64,000 nt of DNA from Oharaeibacter diazotrophicus (GTDB lineage Bacteria > Pseudomonadota > Alphaproteobacteria > Rhizobiales > Pleomorphomonadaceae), in NCBI RefSeq assembly GCF_004362745.1, contig NZ_SNXY01000007.1:62001-126000 (forward strand), in the 5' to 3' direction. Made by a program: the position numbers and the translations under genes. The stretch's first letter is position 1. Every line of letters begins with the position of its first letter. The notes beneath the pieces are model-generated. The model saw nothing but the letters and a program-made list of their open reading frames with translations, was not told the origin of the DNA and made no database searches. Of the stretch, positions 21,598 through 37,620 are shown one piece after another.

Positions 21598-23673
<2,076 letters not shown>

Positions 23674-23866: not shown

Positions 23867-25498
23867 TCAAGCCCGGCCGAGCTTCTCGGCGCCGCCGCCG
23901 AGCGCGGGGCCGGCGGTGGGGTCCTCGTCCTCGGCGAGGTCGCCGACCAGCGTCTCGGTGGTCAGGATCAGCTTGGCGACCGAGGCGGCGTTCTTCAGCG
24001 CCGTGGTGGTGACGCGCACGGGATCGACGATGCCGGCCTCGTACATGTTGCCGAAGGTGCCGCGCGCGGCGTCGTAGCCGAAGCCGCCGTTGACGGCGGA
24101 GACGCGGGCGACGACGTCGTCGGCGCTGCCGCCGGCGTTGGTCACGATCCGCCACAGCGGCCGCGTCAGCACCGACTTCACAAGCCTGACGCCGGCGGCG
24201 ACGTCGCCGTCGGTGGAGGCGAGGAGGTCGTCGAGCACGCCGCCGACCTGGGCGAGCGCCGAGCCGCCGCCGGCGATCACGCCCTCCTCGGCCGCCGCCC
24301 GGACGGCGGAGAGCGAATCCTCGATCAGCTGGATCGTGCGCTTCTGCTCGACCGGGGTGACGCCGCCGGCGTAGAGCACGGCGGTGCCGCTGGAGAGCTT
24401 GGCGAGGCGCTCGCGCAGCTTGTCCTGCTCGATGTTGGGCGGCGCGAGCTCGAACTGGCGCTGCACCTGCGCCCGCCGTGCCGCTATCTGCACCGGATCG
24501 CCGTGGCCGCGGATGATCGCGGTGTGGCTGGCGCTCGTGCGCACGCGGTCGGCCGAGCCGAGGTCCTCGGGCCTGACGTCCTCGAGGCGTCCGCCGAGGT
24601 CGCGGGCGACGACCCGGCCGCCGGTGAGGATCGCCATGTCCTCGAGCAGCGCCTTGCGCCAGTGGCCGTATTCCGGCGGGTGGACCACCAGGTAGCGGCC
24701 GGCGCCGCTGCGCCCGAGCAGGGCCACCACCACCTCCGGCGCGACCTCCTCGGCCACGATCGTCAGCGGCCGGCCGGCCTTGGCGGCGATGGCGCGGACG
24801 GGCTCGAGCGCCTGCGGGTCGCGGATCTTGAGGTCGGTGATCAGGATCAGCGGGCGCTCCTGCACCGCCTCCATCTTCTCCGGATCGGTCACCATGTGGT
24901 GGGAGAGATAGCCGCGGTCGAAGGACATGCCCTCGACGACCTCGAGCGTCGTCTCGGTGGTGACGCTGAACTCGGTGGTGATGACGCCGCTCGCCCCGAC
25001 CCGGTCGAAGGCCTCGGCGACGAGGGCGCCGAGCTTGGCATCGGTCGCGGCGATGGTGGCGACGGCGGCGAGGTGGCCGCCGGCATCGGCAGGCCTGGCG
25101 TGGGCCTTCAGCGCGTCGACCACCCGGCCGACGGCGAGGTCGATGCCGCGGACGAGGTCGACCGCCTTGGCGCCGCGCTCGTTGGCCTCGACGCCGCGCT
25201 GCACCAGCGCGTTGGCGAGCACGATGGCGGTGGTGGTGCCGTCGCCGGCGATCTCGTTGGTCTGCATCGAGACCTCGCGGACCACCTGGGCCCCCATGTT
25301 CTCGAAGCGATCGTGCAGCTCGATCTCGGCGGCGATGCTGACGCCGTCGCGCGTCACCATCGGCGTGCCGATGGGGCGGTCGATCATGGCGTTCATGCCC
25401 TTCGGCCCCAGCGTCGGCTCGACCGCCGCCGCCAGCTGGGCGACGCCGCGGGCGAGGGCACGGCGGGCATGCTCGTTGTGGATCAGCAATTTGGGCAT
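23867..25498 (-). CDS. mimG: GroEL-like chaperonin of the monooxygenase operon
   Basis: A 543-residue chaperonin 60 homologue. Seen: the ATP-binding EPTLGPKGMNAMID near residue 30, the catalytic GDGTTTAIVLA near 87, the apical domain VTTETTLEVVEGMSFDRGYLS, and EEGVIAGGGSALAQ near 405. It diverges from housekeeping GroEL and ends in GGGAEKLGRA rather than a Gly-Gly-Met tail; no groES gene is adjacent. In mycobacterial and other mim/prm clusters a dedicated chaperonin (MimG) is required to fold the large hydroxylase subunit. It is last in the eight-gene operon, 111 bp after the DUF59 gene. Confidence 0.92.
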   Translation of the reverse strand: MPKLLIHNEHARRALARGVAQLAAAVEPTLGPKGMNAMIDRPIGTPMVTRDGVSIAAEIELHDRFENMGAQVVREVSMQTNEIAGDGTTTAIVLANALVQRGVEANERGAKAVDLVRGIDLAVGRVVDALKAHARPADAGGHLAAVATIAATDAKLGALVAEAFDRVGASGVITTEFSVTTETTLEVVEGMSFDRGYLSHHMVTDPEKMEAVQERPLILITDLKIRDPQALEPVRAIAAKAGRPLTIVAEEVAPEVVVALLGRSGAGRYLVVHPPEYGHWRKALLEDMAILTGGRVVARDLGGRLEDVRPEDLGSADRVRTSASHTAIIRGHGDPVQIAARRAQVQRQFELAPPNIEQDKLRERLAKLSSGTAVLYAGGVTPVEQKRTIQLIEDSLSAVRAAAEEGVIAGGGSALAQVGGVLDDLLASTDGDVAAGVRLVKSVLTRPLWRIVTNAGGSADDVVARVSAVNGGFGYDAARGTFGNMYEAGIVDPVRVTTTALKNAASVAKLILTTETLVGDLAEDEDPTAGPALGGGAEKLGRA

Positions 25499-28658: not shown

Positions 28659-29027
28659 TCAGATGAACTCGAACACCTCGTCCATGTCGCCGAACAGGAT
28701 CACGGTGTTGTCGTCGATGCGGACCATCCTGCCGTAGTGGGTCGAGGTGTTGACCTCGAAGATCTCCGCGGTCATCTCGCGGCCGAGGTACTCGCCGATC
28801 TCGTCCATCTTGAAGATCAGCTTGCCGTCGCCGTCGATGCGGATCATCGCCGGCTGGTAGGTGACGACGACGCCGGGCTTCTTGCCCATGAACTCGGCGA
28901 TGGCGCGCGCCTCGACCGAGTCGTTCATGGTGACCCCGCACTGGTGCGAGATCGTCTGCTCGAAGGTGATGTCCTTCATGGACTTGAAGATGTTCGCCTG
29001 GCTGGCGTCCCGCGCTGCGACGGACAT
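28659..29027 (-). CDS. mimD: monooxygenase coupling/effector protein (MmoB/DmpM family)
   Basis: A 122-residue cofactor-less effector protein. The MmoB/DmpM domain spans residues 25-115, with VTMNDSVEARAIAEFMGKKPGVVVTYQPAMIRIDGDGKL and DEIGEYLGREMT. This is the fold that binds the hydroxylase and tunes oxygen activation and regioselectivity. ATG 29027 is preceded by GGAG. The gene is fourth in the mim order, after the hydroxylase small subunit. Confidence 0.93.
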   Translation of the reverse strand: MSVAARDASQANIFKSMKDITFEQTISHQCGVTMNDSVEARAIAEFMGKKPGVVVTYQPAMIRIDGDGKLIFKMDEIGEYLGREMTAEIFEVNTSTHYGRMVRIDDNTVILFGDMDEVFEFI

Positions 29028-29125: not shown

Positions 29126-30184
29126 TCAGGTGCCGAGGCCGAGTTCGCCGAGGATCTGGCCGATGCGCTCCTGGGAGACCGCACGGACGTCGTCGAAGGA
29201 CACGGGCTTGGAATGCGGGGCCGACCACACCGGCTGCAGGGCGAGCGCGGCCTTGTCGGCGAGGGCGCGGTGCTTGGCGAGCCAGCCGTTGAAGAGCTTG
29301 CGGTTGTGCGCCGCGTGCTTCTCGTCGTTGGCCAGCAGGTAGATCAGGTCGATGGTGTTGGCGAGGTTGCGCTCGTAGTCGGCCTCCGCGGCCGAGATCA
29401 CCGACGGCGTGATGAAGTCGTGGTTGGCCGCCGCCGACTGCATCAGGAAGCCCGAGCGGAACAACTCGCCGACCAGCGGCTCGAACACGATGTTGATGGC
29501 GAAATACTGCTCGAGGTAGTCCTCGGTCCCCATGATGGTCTCGACGGCCTCGCGGGTGCCCTGCCAGATGCCGTCCTCGAGCCAGGCCTTCTTGCCGAGC
29601 TCGTCGTCCCAGCCCTCGATGTCCATGCCGATCTCGGCGAGGTAGAGGGTGATGTCCTGGGCGAGGCGCAGCTTGTAGGACGAGTTGGTCAGCGTCGCGT
29701 TGTTGATCATCTGGGTGTAGCCGTAGCGCTGCGCCTGCATCAGCGACGTGCCCAGACCGAATTCGGCGTGCTTCCAGGCGCCGAGATGGGTCTGCAGGAT
29801 CTTGACCCAGACGCGGTCGAAGGTCTTCGGCGCGCCGGACTTGCGGCCGTTGGCGATGACGCTCTGCACCATCGTCTCGATCTTGGACTGACGCTGGTAG
29901 TGCGTGCGCTCCCACTCCTGGTCGGGGGCGCGGAAGGCGTGCCAGTTGGAGGAGAGGGCCGCCGTCGCGTCCTTCACGTAGGCGCCGCGGCCGTTGGAGA
30001 AGTTGATGATCCAGTCCTGGATCAGGTAGCGCTCGGGGTCGGGCTGCACGTCGACGGTGACGTCCTCGTAGTGCGTCGCGCGCTGGCCCTTGGGCTGGAA
30101 GTAGCGGTACTTCCGGCTGTCGGAGTCGGCGAAGATGGCGGCGCCGGCGGCGCCCGATCCGACAGAACTGGAAACGGCAGGCAT
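29126..30184 (-). CDS. mimC: binuclear iron monooxygenase, hydroxylase small (beta) subunit
   Basis: A 352-residue protein of the ferritin-like methane/phenol/toluene hydroxylase beta-subunit family. Seen: YFQPKGQRATHYEDVTVDVQ near residue 28, YLIQDWIINFSNGRG near 54, the helical core around LGAWKHAEFGLG, and LLANDEKHAAHNRKL. As usual for beta subunits, the canonical iron ligands are not complete, so it is structural. It pairs with MimA in an alpha2-beta2 hydroxylase. A 116-bp dispersed repeat lies in the gap before it. Confidence 0.93.
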   Translation of the reverse strand: MPAVSSSVGSGAAGAAIFADSDSRKYRYFQPKGQRATHYEDVTVDVQPDPERYLIQDWIINFSNGRGAYVKDATAALSSNWHAFRAPDQEWERTHYQRQSKIETMVQSVIANGRKSGAPKTFDRVWVKILQTHLGAWKHAEFGLGTSLMQAQRYGYTQMINNATLTNSSYKLRLAQDITLYLAEIGMDIEGWDDELGKKAWLEDGIWQGTREAVETIMGTEDYLEQYFAINIVFEPLVGELFRSGFLMQSAAANHDFITPSVISAAEADYERNLANTIDLIYLLANDEKHAAHNRKLFNGWLAKHRALADKAALALQPVWSAPHSKPVSFDDVRAVSQERIGQILGELGLGT

Positions 30185-30237: not shown

Positions 30238-30353
30238 AGATCATTCTCCGACCAGGTCGCACGCCATGGTCGATTGGAGATTGCTCCGGCATATTGAATC
30301 TGGAGCGATTTCTCATCGACCTGATGCTTCCGTCAGGTCGGAAAGCGCTCTAG
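30238..30353 (-). repeat. dispersed hairpin-forming intergenic repeat, copy B
   Basis: On the minus strand this begins CTAGAGCGCTTTCCGACCTG and contains the stem CGACCTGA...TCAGGTCG, then AGAAATCGCTCCAGATTCAA and a second stem region with a GGAGAATG end. It matches copy A (53264-53381) along its whole length with high identity in the first 60 bases. It fills most of the gap between mimB and mimC. The TAG stop codon of mimB is inside the repeat's terminal CTAG. Confidence 0.8.
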
Positions 30354-31414
30354 TGGCCCGTCGAGGTGCCGCCGGACGAGGTCGTGAACTTGTCGAAGAA
30401 GATCCGCTCGGTCTCGAAGCCGTTCATGAAGAGCACCGGCTGGAGCGCGTCGATCATCGGCGGCGGACCGCAGGCGTAGACGTCGCCGTCGCCGTCGAGG
30501 TCGAGTTCCTTCAGCTTGGCGTCGACCCGCTCGTGCACGAAGCCGCGCTCGCCGAGCCACTGGTCGTCGTCGGCGGCGTGGGACAGCACGGGCACGAAGC
30601 GCACCGAGGGATGGCGCTCGAGGATCGCGGCGATGCGGTCGAGGTAGAACAGGTCGTCGCGGGTGCGGGCGCCGTAGAAGAAGTAGACGTCGCGCTCCTC
30701 GCCGCTGGCGATGTGGTCGTGCAGGATCGACCAGATCGGCGACAGTCCCGAGCCCGCGCCCACCAGGATCACGGGTCCGCTCCGGTTCTCGCGCCGGAAG
30801 CAGGTGCCGTAGGGTCCGACGACGGTGACGTCGGCTCCGACGCGGATTCCGCCGGAGTCGAGTTCTCCGGAGAAGCGTCCCTGCGGGTATTTCTTGATGA
30901 CGAAGGAGAGTCTCTGGGTTTCGCTCGGCGGATTTGCCATGGAGAACGAGCGCGTAATCGTCTCCCCCGTTTGCGTGGTGACGGTGATGTCGACATATTG
31001 GCCGGCCCAGAACTTGATGGGGGCACCGAGGTCGATCTGAATGCCGCGGATGTCGTGGGTGAGACGCTCTATGCCGGCGATGCGGCCCTTGTAGGTTTTC
31101 ACCGCGATCGACTTGGAGAGCACCTCTTCGTCGTAGTTGAGGAGCTCCACCTCGAGGTCGGAGTAGGCCAGCGTCCGGCACAGGAGCACGTGGCCGGTGT
31201 CCTTCTCCATGTCGTTGAGCGCGAAGGTCGAGTAGCGCAGCATCTCGACCTCGCCGTCGAGCAGCACGCACTTGCAAGCCGAGCACTGGCCCTCCTTGCA
31301 GCCGTGCGGCAGCGCGATGCCCTGGCGGAACGCCGCGTTCAGCACCGTCTCGCCCTCTTCGACGTCGAACTCGACCTGCACCGGTTCGAGCCGGACCCTG
31401 CGAGCGACTGTCAT
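30350..31414 (-). CDS. mimB: binuclear iron monooxygenase reductase (2Fe-2S/FAD)
   Basis: A 354-residue NADH oxidoreductase. The N-terminal plant-type ferredoxin domain has cysteine ligands C39, C44, C47 and C79 (GCKEGQCSACKC, LLCRT). The FAD domain has RSFSMANPPSE near 176 and the NAD(P) domain has ILVGAGSGLSPIWSIL near 240 and VYACGPPPMIDAL near 325. It delivers electrons from NADH to the di-iron hydroxylase. The TAG stop codon falls in the CTAG end of the dispersed repeat. It is 109 bp downstream of mimA. Confidence 0.95.
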   Translation of the reverse strand: MTVARRVRLEPVQVEFDVEEGETVLNAAFRQGIALPHGCKEGQCSACKCVLLDGEVEMLRYSTFALNDMEKDTGHVLLCRTLAYSDLEVELLNYDEEVLSKSIAVKTYKGRIAGIERLTHDIRGIQIDLGAPIKFWAGQYVDITVTTQTGETITRSFSMANPPSETQRLSFVIKKYPQGRFSGELDSGGIRVGADVTVVGPYGTCFRRENRSGPVILVGAGSGLSPIWSILHDHIASGEERDVYFFYGARTRDDLFYLDRIAAILERHPSVRFVPVLSHAADDDQWLGERGFVHERVDAKLKELDLDGDGDVYACGPPPMIDALQPVLFMNGFETERIFFDKFTTSSGGTSTGH

Positions 31415-31523: not shown

Positions 31524-33194
31524 TCAGTTGAACGGCGTGATGGTGAAGCCGGCGCGGTAGTCCGCGATGTACTTCTCGCGGTCGGCCGGCGACATCTCGC
31601 GCAGCAGCGTCAGCGGCGACAGGAGCGTGTGGCCACGGACGTCGTCGAGGGTCCAGAGGTCCTTGTCGTCGAAGCGCAGGTGCGGCTGCGGCACCAGGGT
31701 CCTGCCGTCCGAGCGGACGAAGTTCAGGTCCTTGATCGCGTCGGCGAGATCCCAGCCGTGGTACAGCGTCTCCCACTCGCGCTTGCCGGAGAAGCGGCCC
31801 ATCGCCGGCGTCGGCCGGCCCTGGTACTCGTCCGAGAAAGCCTCGACGGCGGTCCAGCGGTCGAGCTCGTGGGCGAAGGTGTGCAGCTTGCCGTCGATCT
31901 CGTCGACCACCATGTCCTCGCGGATGAGGCACGGCACCAGGCAGCTCCAGCAGCGCTGCGGATAGACGTAGCCGACCTGCTCGTTGAAGGTGATGATCTT
32001 CTCGCCGGGGCGGCTGAGCCGGTCGTACCACTTCCAGAAGTCGCCGAACTGGGCGTACCAGCCGGGGTACTTGTGCTCGAACCACTCGAAGTCCTGCTCG
32101 CGCTGGGCCTCGATGCGCCAGAAGTTCACCGGCCAGCCGACCGCGAAGAACTGCGCCACCTTGTGCACGTAGAACTTCTCGGTGAGGCGCTTCCAGGCGG
32201 TCTGGACGTCGTCGTGATGGATCTTGATGCCGTACTTCTCGAGCGGCAGCATGTAGGTCCGGTAGTAGTCCTCGAAGATCCAGCGGTGCCACATCTCCGC
32301 GTAGGATTCCTTGTTCTTGTCACGGTTGGTGGTGCCGTATTCGATGAACGTGCCGATGGCGGCGTCCACGATGGCGTGGTTCTGCCAGAAGGCGTAGCGC
32401 AGGTCGCGCTCGAGCAGGAGGTGGTTGTCCGGCTCTTTCAGCGCGGCCATCAGCAGCGAGTGGCCGTTGCCGATGTGGCGGCTCTCGTCGGACTGGACGG
32501 AGAGGAACACGGTCGGCAGGGCGTAGTCGCCGTTGCGGGCGGCTTCCGAGGGCATCGCCACGAACAGGGTATTCGTGAACGCGGTCTCGGCGACGACGGT
32601 GAGGTACATGCACGCGGCGGTCATGGTGTCGCCGGTGATGAATCCCTCGCCGAACTGACGGCCGATGGTCGTGGCGTAGCACTTGCCGAAGGCTTCTTCG
32701 GTGATGTCGAAGCCGGCGGGATCGATGTAGTTCTCCATGTACCACTTCTTCAGGTTCATCTGAATCGTGGAATGGCGGAACTCGTCGACCATCTGCATGG
32801 TGAAGCCGGTGCGCAGGTCCTCGCCGGGGGCGAGACGGGCGACCATGGCCATCGAGCGGGCGGCGGAGATCTCCGGAAACGGGATGATCGCCAGGAAGAG
32901 CTTCATCCACTCGACCCAGCGCGGCTCCACGTTGCGGAACATGTCGCCGCGGAGCGCCGCGTCGAGCGCGCCGTAAACGCGGTTGTCCTTCTCTTCCTGC
33001 ATCGGGAAGTAGGACCGCAGCACCTGCTTCATCGGATCGCGCGGCGCCTTGGAGATCTTGTAGTCCGTCGGGAAGGTCATCGCCTCCCGCACGTAGGTCG
33101 GATTCCAGCCGAGATCGGAGATCTTCTTGGTCGCCTCGCCGACGGAGATGCCGCGCTGGGAGGTGATCTTGTTGAGCGTCAAGGACATGGGCAT
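31524..33194 (-). CDS. mimA: binuclear iron monooxygenase, hydroxylase large (alpha) subunit
   Basis: A 556-residue catalytic subunit (554 if ATG 33188 is used). Numbered from 33188, the di-iron ligands are visible as E106 (PFPEIS), E136 and H139 (DEFRH), E201 (VAETAF), E235 and H238 (DESRH). This is the two E-x-x-H pattern of bacterial multicomponent monooxygenases. Long matches to MimA/PrmA-type enzymes (RSYFPMQEEKDNRVYGA, STIQMN, YIDPAGFDITE, GEGFITGD) place it with propane 2-monooxygenase/acetone- and phenol-oxidising enzymes rather than methane monooxygenase. First gene of the operon, behind a sigma-54 promoter and a 278-nt leader. Confidence 0.95.
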   Translation of the reverse strand: MPMSLTLNKITSQRGISVGEATKKISDLGWNPTYVREAMTFPTDYKISKAPRDPMKQVLRSYFPMQEEKDNRVYGALDAALRGDMFRNVEPRWVEWMKLFLAIIPFPEISAARSMAMVARLAPGEDLRTGFTMQMVDEFRHSTIQMNLKKWYMENYIDPAGFDITEEAFGKCYATTIGRQFGEGFITGDTMTAACMYLTVVAETAFTNTLFVAMPSEAARNGDYALPTVFLSVQSDESRHIGNGHSLLMAALKEPDNHLLLERDLRYAFWQNHAIVDAAIGTFIEYGTTNRDKNKESYAEMWHRWIFEDYYRTYMLPLEKYGIKIHHDDVQTAWKRLTEKFYVHKVAQFFAVGWPVNFWRIEAQREQDFEWFEHKYPGWYAQFGDFWKWYDRLSRPGEKIITFNEQVGYVYPQRCWSCLVPCLIREDMVVDEIDGKLHTFAHELDRWTAVEAFSDEYQGRPTPAMGRFSGKREWETLYHGWDLADAIKDLNFVRSDGRTLVPQPHLRFDDKDLWTLDDVRGHTLLSPLTLLREMSPADREKYIADYRAGFTITPFN

Positions 33195-33388: not shown

Positions 33389-33483
33389 ATCGTGGCGGTC
33401 CTCGGTCCGGGACTCCTCCCATCCTTCGTTCTTGAGCCTCCGTGACGTTGCACGGGGCGTTTCTTCTTGGGTAACGATGAAAG

Positions 33484-33498
33484 CAAACGGCGTGCCAG
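33484..33498 (-). promoter_or_regulatory. sigma-54 (-24/-12) promoter of the mim operon
   Basis: On the minus strand the sequence reads TGGCACG-CCGT-TTGC, an exact match to the -24/-12 consensus with GG-N10-GC spacing. Transcription should start near 33472. It fits the sigma-54 activator encoded at the far end of the operon. Confidence 0.85.
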
Positions 33499-33581
33499 CT
33501 GCCCGTCCGTCCTCCGGGATCCTACGTAGGGGGATATCCGAGGCCTTTCCGGACCGCAATTCCCCGCGGGCGGACGGCGTC

Positions 33582-33630
33582 TGTAACGATGCGCTTTACA
33601 CCCGGATTTACAAACGTAATATGCTTTACA
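33582..33630. promoter_or_regulatory. putative upstream activator sites (TTTACA repeats)
   Basis: An AT-rich stretch 85-130 bp upstream of the -24 element holds TGTAA-N9-TTACA (33582-33600) and further TTTACA at 33607-33612 and 33625-33630. The two outer sites share ATGC(GC)TTTACA. Position and symmetry suit enhancer sites for the AcoR/MimR-type activator. The rest of the 552-bp gap between mimA and 33747 shows no gene. Confidence 0.5.
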
Positions 33631-33746
33631 TTATTTGCGTTTGCGGCAAAAAGACTTCGCATTCGCAGCGAAAGATTATGTCGACACTTGCGTTTTCAGA
33701 GTCTAGCCTTCACGCATGAACGAGGGCGCGGACGCCCGGGCCCGGG

Positions 33747-34217
33747 ATGGATTCCATGACGACGGACGGCGACGATCGGGGCGGCGAGGGCGGGGACGAG
33801 GTGGCCGGCGATCTGGTGCGGTTGATGCCGCGCGACGTCGTCTTCTCGATCCGTTTCCTCGGCGAGAGCCAGATCCGGCTGCAGAAGCACTTCCAGGACT
33901 TCCTGATCGCCGAACTCGAACGGGCGGGCATCACCGGCGAGACCCATCCGATGATCCACGCCTTCGCCGAGCGCCACGCCATCGCCATGCGCGACTTCGT
34001 CTTCACCGGCGTCGCGCTGTCGAAGCAGTATCGCATCGCCGAGTTCGAGCGGCTGATCGGCGACGAAACCGCGCTGATCCGCGTCGACATCTGGGACCGG
34101 CTGAAGACCTACATCGCGGTCGCCGAGGCCGACTTCCGCGCCCAATTGCCCGAGATGCGGCCGGAACTCGCGGTCTGGGAGGCGCCGGACCGGGCGCCGC
34201 CGGGCGAGCGCGACTGA
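33747..34217 (+). CDS. hypothetical helical protein, divergent from mimA
   Basis: A 156-residue soluble protein that I do not recognise. It has an acidic low-complexity N-terminus (to about residue 22) and then mostly amphipathic helices: FSIRFLGESQIRLQKHFQDFLIAELER, HAFAERHAIAMRDFVFTGVALSKQYR and RLKTYIAVAEADFRAQLPEM. No signal peptide, cysteine or metal motif is seen. It is the first gene of a plus-strand cassette that shares its AT-rich upstream region with the mim operon, so divergent control is possible. ATG 33756 is an alternative start. Confidence 0.6.
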   Translation: MDSMTTDGDDRGGEGGDEVAGDLVRLMPRDVVFSIRFLGESQIRLQKHFQDFLIAELERAGITGETHPMIHAFAERHAIAMRDFVFTGVALSKQYRIAEFERLIGDETALIRVDIWDRLKTYIAVAEADFRAQLPEMRPELAVWEAPDRAPPGERD

Positions 34218-34267
34218 GCCTCGCGCGAGAAACCGCCGGCGCGCCGGCACCGACCGGGGAGGACGCC

Positions 34268-34573
34268 ATGGACGAGCGGGGAGGGGACGTCGCGACGTTG
34301 CTGGCGGATCGGCTGCGGCTCGTCGCCGCCCTGTCGGGGCTCGGCGCGGAGGCGCTGAAGCTGCAGCAGCGCGAGGGCGCGCTCCGGATCGAGCGGATGC
34401 GGCTCGAGGAGTCCGGCGCCGCCGCTGGCACGGACCTCGAGGAAGAGACGGCCGCGCTCGAGGCCGCGCGGCGCGACCTCGACGAGAGGGTCGCGGCGGC
34501 CGAGCGGGACATCGGAACGATCGACCGTCTGCTGGCGGAATCCGGCGGCGGAGGCGGGAGGAACAGGCGATGA
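34268..34573 (+). CDS. hypothetical coiled-coil protein
   Basis: A 101-residue protein, almost entirely a predicted coiled coil from residue 8 to 92 (heptad-like LLADRLRLVAALSGLGAEALKL and LEAARRDLDERVAAAERDI), ending in a Gly-rich tail. No cysteine or known domain. The stop overlaps the start of the beta-propeller gene by 4 bp (ATGA), so the two are translationally coupled and may form a complex. Confidence 0.6.
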   Translation: MDERGGDVATLLADRLRLVAALSGLGAEALKLQQREGALRIERMRLEESGAAAGTDLEEETAALEAARRDLDERVAAAERDIGTIDRLLAESGGGGGRNRR

Positions 34574-35703
34574 TGAACCGGCAACACCCACCGACGGGGC
34601 TGTTCGAACTGCTGGCGCGGAGCTGGGAGCGGCCCGCGGCGGTCGCGGCCGTGGTGTTCTCCGGCGACGGCGCCACCGTCGCCTTCGCCGGCGCGGACGG
34701 AACGGTGTCGCTGGCGCGGGTTGCCGATCCGGAATCCGCCCTGTCGCGCGTCCGGGTCAGCGGCGATCTCGGCCAGACCTCGATCCGGCCGCCGGCGCGC
34801 GCGCCGCGCCCGCTGGTCGACGCGCCGGCCTTCGGATCGGGGCCGGCGCCGATCGTGGCCACCGACGGCGCGGACTTCCTGGTCGGCGGCGCGGACGGAA
34901 CGGTCGTCCGCCTCGCCACGTCCGGCGAGGTCGAGCCGACCCCGGTCCGGCTCGGCGGGCCGGTGGTCGCACTCGCCGCCTCGGCGGGCGGTTCCGCCGC
35001 GGCCAGCGACGGTACCGTGGTTCTGGTCTTCGCCGCCCGCGGCGACGCCGCGCCGGTGCGGCTCGCCGCGGACGACGCCGGCGGGATCGGTGCGCTCGCC
35101 TTCGCGCGCGGTGGTCGCCGGCTCGCTGTCGCCACCGCCGACGGCCTCGCCGTCCTCGACACCCGGGACGACGGCGCGGTGCTCGCCGACGTCGCGCTGC
35201 CGAGCCGGGCGCTCGCGCCGGTCTGGGCGCCGGGCGACCGCCTGATCGGCACGCCGCTCGCCGGCGGCGGCTTCGCGCTGGTCGATCCGGTCGGCGGCGG
35301 CGTCCGCGTCTTCGGCGACTTCCCGGCGCCGGTGCGGACGGTCAGCTTCAGCGGCCCGGCGGAAGCGGTGCTGGCGTCCGGCGCCTTCCGTGTGGCGGGC
35401 TGGTCGACCGCCCGGCCGGTGGCGGTCGACGATCCCGGTGGCGGTGCGATCGTCTCGGGCCGGGCCGGGCTGGTGCCGGTCGAGAGCCTCGCCGCCCATC
35501 CGACGCGTTCGCTGGTCGCGGCCGGATACGCCAACGGCCAGATCCTGCTGGTGCAGGTCGGCGCGCGCGGCGAGCTGCTGGTCAAGCCGGCGGGTGGCGC
35601 GGTCACCGCGCTCGCCTGGTCGCCCGACGGCCGGCATCTCGCCGCCGGCGACGCCGACGGCGGCGCCAGCATCGTCACCTTCCCGCCGCAGCTGTTCAAG
35701 TGA
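34570..35703 (+). CDS. WD40-like beta-propeller protein
   Basis: A 377-residue cytosolic protein with repeated WD40-like blades. They show as AAVVFSGDGATVAFAGADGTVSLARV at the start, GADGTVVRLAT, LAFARGGRRLAVATADGLAVLD, and a clear final blade VTALAWSPDGRHLAAGDADGGASIV. Such propellers scaffold protein complexes. It is translationally coupled to the coiled-coil gene. No enzymatic motif or signal peptide is seen; the partner is unknown. Confidence 0.7.
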   Translation: MMNRQHPPTGLFELLARSWERPAAVAAVVFSGDGATVAFAGADGTVSLARVADPESALSRVRVSGDLGQTSIRPPARAPRPLVDAPAFGSGPAPIVATDGADFLVGGADGTVVRLATSGEVEPTPVRLGGPVVALAASAGGSAAASDGTVVLVFAARGDAAPVRLAADDAGGIGALAFARGGRRLAVATADGLAVLDTRDDGAVLADVALPSRALAPVWAPGDRLIGTPLAGGGFALVDPVGGGVRVFGDFPAPVRTVSFSGPAEAVLASGAFRVAGWSTARPVAVDDPGGGAIVSGRAGLVPVESLAAHPTRSLVAAGYANGQILLVQVGARGELLVKPAGGAVTALAWSPDGRHLAAGDADGGASIVTFPPQLFK

Positions 35704-35746
35704 GGCGGGGCGAAGGGGGCACGGACGGAGGAAGAGGGAGGAAGTC

Positions 35747-35959
35747 ATGCAGGTCGAACTCACCGCGGAAGAGCAGAGCAAGGACGCCTATTTCCGCGAG
35801 CTCGCGCGGATCGCCGAGGCCATGGTCGCCGAACACGGCCGCGACTTCGGCATGGGCGCGCTGATCCTGGCGGCGCGCTGGATCGCCGAGCGCAACATCG
35901 GCGATCCCGCCGGCGGAGCGGCGACCGGCGGCGGCGCGGGGCTGTCCGGCACCGCCTGA
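35747..35959 (+). CDS. small hypothetical protein
   Basis: A 70-residue protein with a helical core (EEQSKDAYFRELARIAEAMVAEHGRDFGMGALILAARWIAERNI) and a Gly/Ala-rich tail. A GAGGGAGGA ribosome-binding site precedes ATG 35747. It lies 43 bp after the beta-propeller gene and is probably the last gene of the same cassette, since a terminator follows. Function unknown. Confidence 0.55.
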   Translation: MQVELTAEEQSKDAYFRELARIAEAMVAEHGRDFGMGALILAARWIAERNIGDPAGGAATGGGAGLSGTA

Positions 35960-36496: not shown

Positions 36497-37549
36497 TCAG
36501 GGGATCAGCACGGCGCGGCCGTGGATCCTGCCGGCGTGCAGGTCGTGCAGCGCCTTGTTGGCCTCGGACAGCCGGTACTCGGCGGTGGCGAGGTGGACGA
36601 GGCCGCGATCGGCCAGCGCCATCAGCTCCACCAGCTCGGCCCAGGTGCCGACCAGATTGCCGATGATGTTCTTCTCGGTGATGATCATGTCGACGGTCGG
36701 GACCCGGATGTCCTCGCCGTAGCCGACGACGTAGTAGCTGCCCATCGCGCGGGTCATGGCGAGGCCCTTGGTGGTGGTGCCCTTCTCGCCGACGAAGTCG
36801 ATGACCGCCTCGGCACCGGCGCCGCCGGTCAGGGCCAGCACCGCCTCGACCTCGTTGCCGTCGGCCTTGACCAGCTTGTCGGCACCGTATTTCGCGGCGA
36901 GTTCCAGCGAGGCGTCGGAGCGGTCGACCACGATCACGTCGGCGGCGCACATCGCCTTCAGGCACTGGATGCCGATGTGGCCGAGGCCGCCGGCGCCGAT
37001 CACGACGCAGCTCTCGCCCGGCAGCAGGTGGCGGGTCGCCTTCTTGACGGCGCGATAGGCGGTGAGGCCGGCGTCGGCGTAGGCGGCGACGTCCTTCGGC
37101 GCCAGCGTCTTCGGCAGCGGCACGATGTTGCGCTCGGAGGTGCAGAGGAACTCGGCGTAGCCGCCGTCGCAGTCGAGGCCGGGGAACTTGCCGGGGCCGT
37201 GCATGTCGAAGCCGCGGCGGCAGGCGAGGCAGGTCCCGCCCGAGATCTTCGGGTGCACGATCACGGGATCGCCGACCTTGATGCCCTCGACCTCCTTGCC
37301 GACCGCCTCGACCCAGCCGGCGTTCTCGTGGCCCATGATCAGCGGCAGCAGTGCGTCGCCGTTGGGGTCCATGTGCGGACGCCAGACGCCCTCGATGATG
37401 TGCAGGTCGGTGCGGCAGACGCCCGCGCCGCCGATGCGCACGATCACGTCGGTCGACTTGGTGATCTTCGGGTCGGGCACCTCCATCTCGCTCACCCACT
37501 CGCCGGCGGTGAGGCTGTCGTCGTAGGTCTTCAGCACCTGGGCCTTCAT
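36497..37549 (-). CDS. NAD(P)-dependent zinc alcohol dehydrogenase with its own sigma-54 promoter
   Basis: A 350-residue medium-chain dehydrogenase. Seen: catalytic zinc site GVCRTDLHIIEGVW (C44) and MGHENAGWVEAVG (H73, E74). A reduced structural lobe has GGTCLACRRGFDMHGPGKFPGLDCDGGYAEF, and the Rossmann motif is VIGAGGLGHIGIQCLKAM near 180. It is close to NAD-dependent (sec-)alcohol dehydrogenases that accept a broad alcohol range. A sigma-54 promoter lies about 45 nt upstream and a sigma-54 activator is divergently encoded, so it is likely induced by an alcohol or its precursor. Confidence 0.9.
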   Translation of the reverse strand: MKAQVLKTYDDSLTAGEWVSEMEVPDPKITKSTDVIVRIGGAGVCRTDLHIIEGVWRPHMDPNGDALLPLIMGHENAGWVEAVGKEVEGIKVGDPVIVHPKISGGTCLACRRGFDMHGPGKFPGLDCDGGYAEFLCTSERNIVPLPKTLAPKDVAAYADAGLTAYRAVKKATRHLLPGESCVVIGAGGLGHIGIQCLKAMCAADVIVVDRSDASLELAAKYGADKLVKADGNEVEAVLALTGGAGAEAVIDFVGEKGTTTKGLAMTRAMGSYYVVGYGEDIRVPTVDMIITEKNIIGNLVGTWAELVELMALADRGLVHLATAEYRLSEANKALHDLHAGRIHGRAVLIP

Positions 37550-37605
37550 GGTCGTCTCCTCCTCCCTCGGCGGGGCTGTCGCGTCCCTTGGCGGAGACCG
37601 GTTCC

Positions 37606-37620
37606 GCACATGGCGTGCCA
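37606..37620 (-). promoter_or_regulatory. sigma-54 (-24/-12) promoter of the second alcohol dehydrogenase gene
   Basis: On the minus strand the sequence reads TGGCACG-CCAT-GTGC, with a perfect -24 element, the invariant GC at -12 and GG-N10-GC spacing. The start would be near 37594, about 45 nt before the dehydrogenase ATG. Confidence 0.7.

Follow-up and report, generated by a model that had tools for sequence, protein, structure and literature searches.

A four-gene cassette divergent from mimA in Oharaeibacter diazotrophicus is strongly linked to Mim-type soluble diiron monooxygenases and probably encodes dedicated helpers of the enzyme

The window, a 64,000-nucleotide stretch of the Oharaeibacter diazotrophicus genome (contig NZ_SNXY01000007.1, positions 62,001 to 126,000), contains a soluble diiron monooxygenase cluster of the prm/mim type, in which the genes follow the order large subunit, reductase, small subunit, coupling protein, accompanied by a GroEL gene (Table 1). 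Four genes, here called P1 to P4, lie divergently from mimA, and a further gene, P6, is associated with the regulator gene of the cluster.

Table 1. Genes and control elements of the mim locus and the adjoining cassette (positions are those of the window)
Feature	Position	Strand	Description
P6	21018..21491	+	157 aa, new family, directly before the MimR-type regulator gene
Sigma-54-dependent regulator (MimR type)	21673..23673	+	
GroEL-like chaperonin (mimG type)	23867..25498	-	
mimD	28659..29027	-	Coupling protein
mimC	29126..30184	-	Hydroxylase small subunit
mimB	30350..31414	-	Reductase
mimA	31524..33188	-	Hydroxylase large subunit, PF02332
Putative sigma-54 promoter for mimA	33482..33497	-	TGGCACGCCGTTTGCT; best match in the window
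GTAA-N5-9-TTAC upstream motif, two hits	33583..33629		Between the mimA promoter and P1
P1	33747..34217	+	156 aa, predicted mostly helical, new family; alternative start 33756
P2	34268..34573	+	101 aa, long two-helix hairpin predicted from the L111 homologue
P3	34570..35703	+	377 aa, predicted WD40 propeller; conserved end FPPQ(L/M)FK; 4-nt overlap with P2
P4	35747..35959	+	70 aa; conserved core of ~50 residues, predicted as two helices; most general member of the module

The four-frame plus-strand unit described in the initial annotation was borne out. Third-position GC was 0.93, 0.90, 0.92 and 0.90 in P1, P2, P3 and P4, respectively, a strong coding signature in each, and all four frames were kept as open reading frames in relatives; the start of P1 is ambiguous between the two positions given in Table 1. 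The proposed translational coupling of P2 and P3 agrees with the overlap found at 34570-34573. The terminator placed after P4 was not confirmed: the strong GC hairpin at that site (z -2.48) has no T-run, and the terminator scan was negative there. A gene for a ribbon-helix-helix protein (PF13467; 36086-36379, minus strand) adjoins the cassette and recurs at several mim clusters and in Methylocella. P5, a small conserved gene of several mim loci that encodes ~90 aa on the opposite strand beside P2 (L039 15387-15662, L038 15405-15668, L154 7880-8155, L155 4203-4478), was not detected in the window. Three Rhodobacterales plasmids carry their own RNA polymerase sigma-54 factor gene near the cassette (L039 18389-19675, L154 4828-6090, L155 7186-8445).

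The profile searches recommended earlier for each protein identified P3 as a WD40 protein (PF00400, 48 bits with a cut-off of 27; PF12894, 39.5 bits with a cut-off of 22.9) and gave no family match for P1, P2 or P4 in Pfam and NCBIfam at E up to 1 or in PHROG at E up to 0.1. When the alignments of P1 (20 members) and P4 (21 members) were scanned against Pfam, the matches were weak, scattered and unconvincing, the widest occurring in 3 of 21 members with a best E of 0.12. As far as the known small subunits or assembly proteins of diiron monooxygenases (gamma, DmpK and MmoD types) are represented in Pfam, neither P4 nor P1 gave a convincing match to them. P6 was searched against Pfam only and matched no family there; P1, P2, P4 and P6 are without a family entry in these libraries. 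Pfam revealed no DNA-binding or ligand domain in P1-P4, and no known RNA element was found in the cassette region at the gathering threshold. The cassette proteins have no membrane helix and no conserved cysteine, and a transport or redox role is therefore disfavoured. A phage or defence origin had no support: PHROG gave no match and no phage record with P1 was found; P3 had a weak, repeat-type match only in PADLOC (21.9 bits).

P1 of the window, folded with 52 relatives (pLDDT 83, pTM 0.55), was predicted to be mostly helical, as had been suggested, and to contain in addition two short strands. The predicted fold had no match in the PDB (best E 0.61) or among viral structures (best E 0.47), and its best Z in VIA-align, 6.5 over 54 residues, lies in the range that this tool calls common. 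P2-P3-P4 were folded as one chain from Bradyrhizobium macuxiense (L111), in which the three genes lie in one frame (pLDDT 88.9, with the propeller part mostly above 90). The model shows a two-helix hairpin for P2, a propeller for P3 and a pair of helices for P4, consistent with the coiled-coil and WD40-like types assigned from the window. Judged on the L111 homologue, P3 would be a closed propeller, and its strand list fits eight blades, a count taken from the strand list and not from coordinates. With Z scores of about 30-36, the best structural matches of P3 included the natural eight-bladed proteins TBLR1, Rsa4, Sqt1 and Fbw7 as well as Tako8, an eight-bladed design. Sqt1 and Rsa4, eukaryotic WD40 assembly factors of the ribosome, were among the best (Z about 33-35 over ~320 residues, rmsd 2.5-3.1); at 15-17% identity they have the fold in common with P3, but not the function. 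The multi-protein assembly that had been proposed from the combination of coiled coil and propeller is plausible, although the pTM of 0.70 of the read-through chain does not establish docking.

The distribution of the cassette follows that of MimA. Among 397 genomes of the order, a sample of a larger group in which relatives are not independent, P1 was present in 18 and MimA in 21, and all 18 were inside the 21 (the genome of O. diazotrophicus is in both sets). One of the three MimA genomes without P1 has P2-P3-P4 (G195), and the other two have P4 alone directly before mimA (G168 and G182). A Bradyrhizobium-type genome (G356, locus L036) has kept mim, P1 and P4, and P2-P3 are missing at the locus. 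P4 was found in 14 of 170 genomes of the order, assumed to be part of the 397, and all 14 are on the MimA list. The other MimA genomes also show P4 at the locus except G206, in which the contig ends at the locus and neither P4 nor P2-P3 is scorable. In samples of the phylum, P4 occurred in 3 of 150 genomes and P1 in 4 of 398, all of them MimA carriers.

A scan for P1 across one genome per species (84,980 species), gated by one peptide pattern, gave 85 relatives, of which 80 were kept; all 80 are from Alphaproteobacteria. Mim genes lay within 10 kb in 78 of these 80 named loci, and in the remaining two the contig begins shortly before P1. The numbers of loci with a detected P2, P3 or P4 were 76, 79 and 77, respectively. 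The gaps in P3 and P4 are contig ends; P2 is genuinely absent from Bradyrhizobium L118, where there is no room for the gene. Identity in P1 carriers was 31-59% for P1 compared with 87-97% for MimA, and the cassette proteins are thus much more divergent than MimA, as expected of helpers. The one match to P1 in a viral collection is 20 residues long, with 60% identity (contig L019, 3627-3686).

Among 72,556 plasmid records, P1 was found in 5, P4 in 13, a P3-like protein in 13 and MimA in 21, and 11 of the 13 records with P4 had MimA at E up to 1e-100. Cassettes without intact mimA are damaged loci. In Shinella HZN7, IS21 lies beside a truncated mimA and the cassette is intact; in Rhizobium CB3171, a mimA remnant runs directly into a truncated P3, and P1 and P2 are gone; in Phyllobacterium zundukense, transposase sequence adjoins a shortened P3 and there is no mimA nearby. 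An intact cassette without intact mim was found in one broken locus only. By single-sequence search, P4 was not found in 10 of the 21 plasmid records with MimA (four Azospirillum, two Methylocella, three Rhodococcus and Indioceanicola), nor was the cassette found in the mim/prm clusters of Azospirillum, Methylocella and Rhodococcus. In Skermanella, a close relative of Azospirillum, P4 is located after groEL.

P1 is missing from Paracoccus, Ponticoccus and the beta-proteobacterium Caballeronia, all of which have P2-P3-P4; in Caballeronia these three genes lie directly before mimA. The Caballeronia P2 was assigned by its position, size and overlap with P3, since the profile did not detect it. 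A single-sequence search of the plasmids with P2 gave no match, so that the homology of P2 is based on its position and on a profile of six sequences. The cassette stays beside mim in alpha- and beta-proteobacteria despite different gene orders and orientations. Wide occurrence without mim genes, which the initial annotation had named as refuting evidence, was sought and not found, the few exceptions being the damaged loci. The linkage (MimA in 18 of 18 P1 genomes of the order) strongly supports the suggestion of a cassette in the service of the monooxygenase. We regard the link between cassette and Mim, as judged from gene content, as strong; genome comparison could hardly provide a better one.

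In a MimA tree of 34 rows, which was rooted at the midpoint and has many weak branches, lineages with P4 only and with P2-P3-P4 took near-basal positions in the proteobacterial branch; P1 was confined to one later clade, with losses. These distributions show P4 to be the general core of the module, P2-P3 a common addition and P1 a later one, with gains or losses of P2-P3 and P1 at later stages. P6 was present in 19 of the 21 MimA genomes and in 0 of 4 MimA-negative genomes; it is missing from G168 and G182, the genomes that lack P1-P3, and it tracks P2-P3 among MimA genomes. An exclusive pairing of P1 with P6 was dropped, as G195 carries P6 without P1.

Between mimA and P1 lies an AT-rich stretch (~33580-33720) with a central GC of 0.38-0.50 per 60 nt. 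A sigma-54 promoter was directed toward mimA in 66 of 66 divergent loci and toward P1 in 3 of 66. Co-induction of the cassette with the mim genes, which had been proposed on the basis of their common AT-rich upstream region, therefore has no promoter support, and none was found for a common sigma-54 promoter as its cause. The AT-rich region itself is present and holds a conserved motif next to P1; it is probably the mim activator region. The motif, GTAA-N5-9-TTAC, occurred in 62 of 69 loci, whereas 200 block shuffles gave 2.3 on average and at most 8, and its conservation marks it as a probable activator site. A separate promoter for the cassette is probable, and hexamers resembling those of sigma-70 promoters overlap the motif in the window. 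A second strong sigma-54 match (37605-37620, minus strand) lies upstream of an alcohol dehydrogenase gene (36497-37549). In Bradyrhizobium, the distance from the sigma-54 regulator gene to the start of P1 downstream of it is 13-17 nt in 10 of 12 loci and 22 nt in another; in the remaining locus P1 overlaps the regulator gene by start choice. The resulting order is P6-regulator-P1-P2-P3-P4. In Caballeronia, a sigma-54 match is located between P4 and mimA, and co-transcription of these two genes is therefore not established.

When the P3 profile was searched against the genome of O. diazotrophicus, the runner-up was a 322-aa WD40 protein encoded ~80 kb away (E 1.9e-38, against 1.6e-5 for the match ranked after it). 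Its gene comes directly after a COG0523 GTPase gene, recognised by its cobW and CobW_C domains. The pair lies at L203 3125-5300 (G000:C7), and the GTPase has a histidine-rich loop. A COG0523 neighbour was present, in the stretch read, for 4 of 6 such WD40 proteins checked, and Haas et al. (2009; PMC2770081) describe prokaryotic COG0523 subfamily 5 genes as clustering with WD40 genes. The COG0523-linked WD40 proteins are the nearest non-mim relatives of P3 that we found; the paralogue in its own genome is 31% identical to P3 over 279 aligned columns. P3 differs from it in length (377 vs 322 aa), in a conserved N-terminal segment of its own and in the C-terminal FPPQ(L/M)FK. In a 25-row tree, which is a small sample with long outgroup branches, the mim P3 and the COG0523-linked WD40 proteins formed one group (96/98) apart from two further WD40 proteins encoded in this genome. 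P3 of Caballeronia branched with the COG0523-linked set (100/98) and not with the other mim P3, which formed a branch of their own apart from it. At the level of sequence, these results show a relationship between P3 and the WD40 proteins whose genes adjoin those of COG0523 metal-chaperone GTPases. The CobW model found no COG0523/CobW gene in the window.

The four genes are probably dedicated helpers for building or running the Mim enzyme. We assign a probability of about 0.45 to our preferred reading, in which the cassette forms a dedicated accessory module for assembling, or loading metal into, the soluble diiron monooxygenase of the proteobacterial Mim (propane/ketone) type. In the mechanism that we infer, the WD40 protein P3 would serve, together with the P2 hairpin and the small P4, as a docking platform that takes over the MimA hydroxylase from the chaperonin encoded in the cluster and assists in filling or protecting the diiron centre, or in building the hydroxylase complex; P1 would be an added adaptor. 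Assembly or metal loading is preferred for four reasons: the structural genes are accompanied by P4 and P2-P3-P4, the cluster has a dedicated chaperonin, the P3 lineage has ties with metal-chaperone GTPases, and comparable helper genes are described in soluble methane monooxygenase clusters (PMC9324122). A chaperonin is required in mycobacterial Mim, according to a title cited in PMC8394569. Against this reading are the absence of P2-P3 from L036 and of P2 from L118, the lack of a COG0523 gene in the window and the position of the Bradyrhizobium cassette about 14 nt behind the regulator gene, which is equally compatible with regulation; against a general need for the cassette is the existence of mim clusters without any cassette gene. 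More specifically, a WD40 partner of COG0523 may have been recruited to mim and have become the platform of a metal-insertion complex (P2-P3-P4, later P1), a scenario that we consider speculative and rather doubtful.

The arrangement in Bradyrhizobium and the presence of P6 make regulation the main rival. P1 (with P6) and the WD40 and coiled-coil proteins would then sense substrate or the state of the enzyme and modulate the sigma-54 activator of mim. The close succession of regulator gene and P1 in Bradyrhizobium, the place of P6 just before the regulator gene together with its distribution among MimA genomes, and the conserved upstream motif adjoining P1 all fit such a role. It is nonetheless unlikely, as other lineages have P4, the most general part, immediately ahead of mimA or behind groEL, and none of P1-P4 has a DNA-binding or ligand domain in Pfam. 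A coiled-coil hairpin and a propeller are generally known as typical parts of scaffolds, and a platform of P2, P3 and P1 could cluster Mim enzymes or tie them to dehydrogenases; but P4 is found without P2-P3, and the dehydrogenase genes vary among loci while the cassette stays, so that we regard a structural scaffold as quite unlikely.

The chance is slim that P4 is a small extra (gamma-like) hydroxylase subunit for which P1-P3 are loading factors, even though its distribution follows that of MimA most closely, its gene adjoins mimA in basal lineages and enzymes of the Mim group are usually described without a gamma subunit: none of the 21 P4 members had a convincing Pfam match, and P4 was not found in the Azospirillum and Methylocella clusters. 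Location on plasmids in several hosts would permit chance hitch-hiking of genes with an unrelated function, which we consider very improbable: across alpha- and beta-proteobacteria the linkage persists through changes in gene order and orientation, and the sole intact cassette without intact mim belongs to a broken locus. The CIA-type targeting complex combines a WD40 protein with a DUF59/MIP18 protein. A CIA-like combination of WD40 and DUF59 proteins was rejected here as a tight pair, since the genes are not strictly found together: the cassette at L031 has no DUF59 in view and L159 has DUF59 without the cassette.

Soluble diiron monooxygenases, which catalyse the oxidation of short alkanes, ketones and pollutants, are difficult to obtain as active enzymes in other hosts. 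Unfamiliar folding and maturation are named as an obstacle for the methane enzyme in PMC9324122. A conserved, unannotated helper module of one enzyme branch offers concrete candidates for co-expression. If the metal-insertion scenario is true, the cassette would represent maturation machinery for these enzymes of a kind found in no open-licence paper searched, and possibly a first link between WD40/COG0523-type metal handling and the assembly of diiron enzymes. Among open-licence full texts, no paper pairing a WD40 protein with propane or soluble di-iron monooxygenase was found.

The cassette is of a known kind, that of accessory genes of soluble diiron monooxygenases, and three of its proteins, P1, P2 and P4, belong to no family of the libraries searched. 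The actinobacterial prm/mim clusters of Rhodococcus and Mycobacterium have the ABCD order in common with the window cluster, and their neighbours, as here, include genes for a hydrolase, a metal-sulfur cluster protein, an alcohol dehydrogenase and GroEL (PMC4428276; L159). Unlike in the window cluster, P1-P4 were not found at the plasmid locus of Rhodococcus JS3073. In soluble methane monooxygenase clusters, MmoD, MmoE and MmoG are encoded by accessory genes with suggested roles in active-site assembly and folding (PMC9324122). No WD40 protein is named in the passages on them, and P1, P2 and P4 have no Pfam family. MmoE is predicted there to form two long helices, like P2, a likeness by description. 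Both sets are accessory genes tied to a diiron monooxygenase operon, and the role of the cassette may, by analogy, parallel that suggested for MmoD, MmoE and MmoG.
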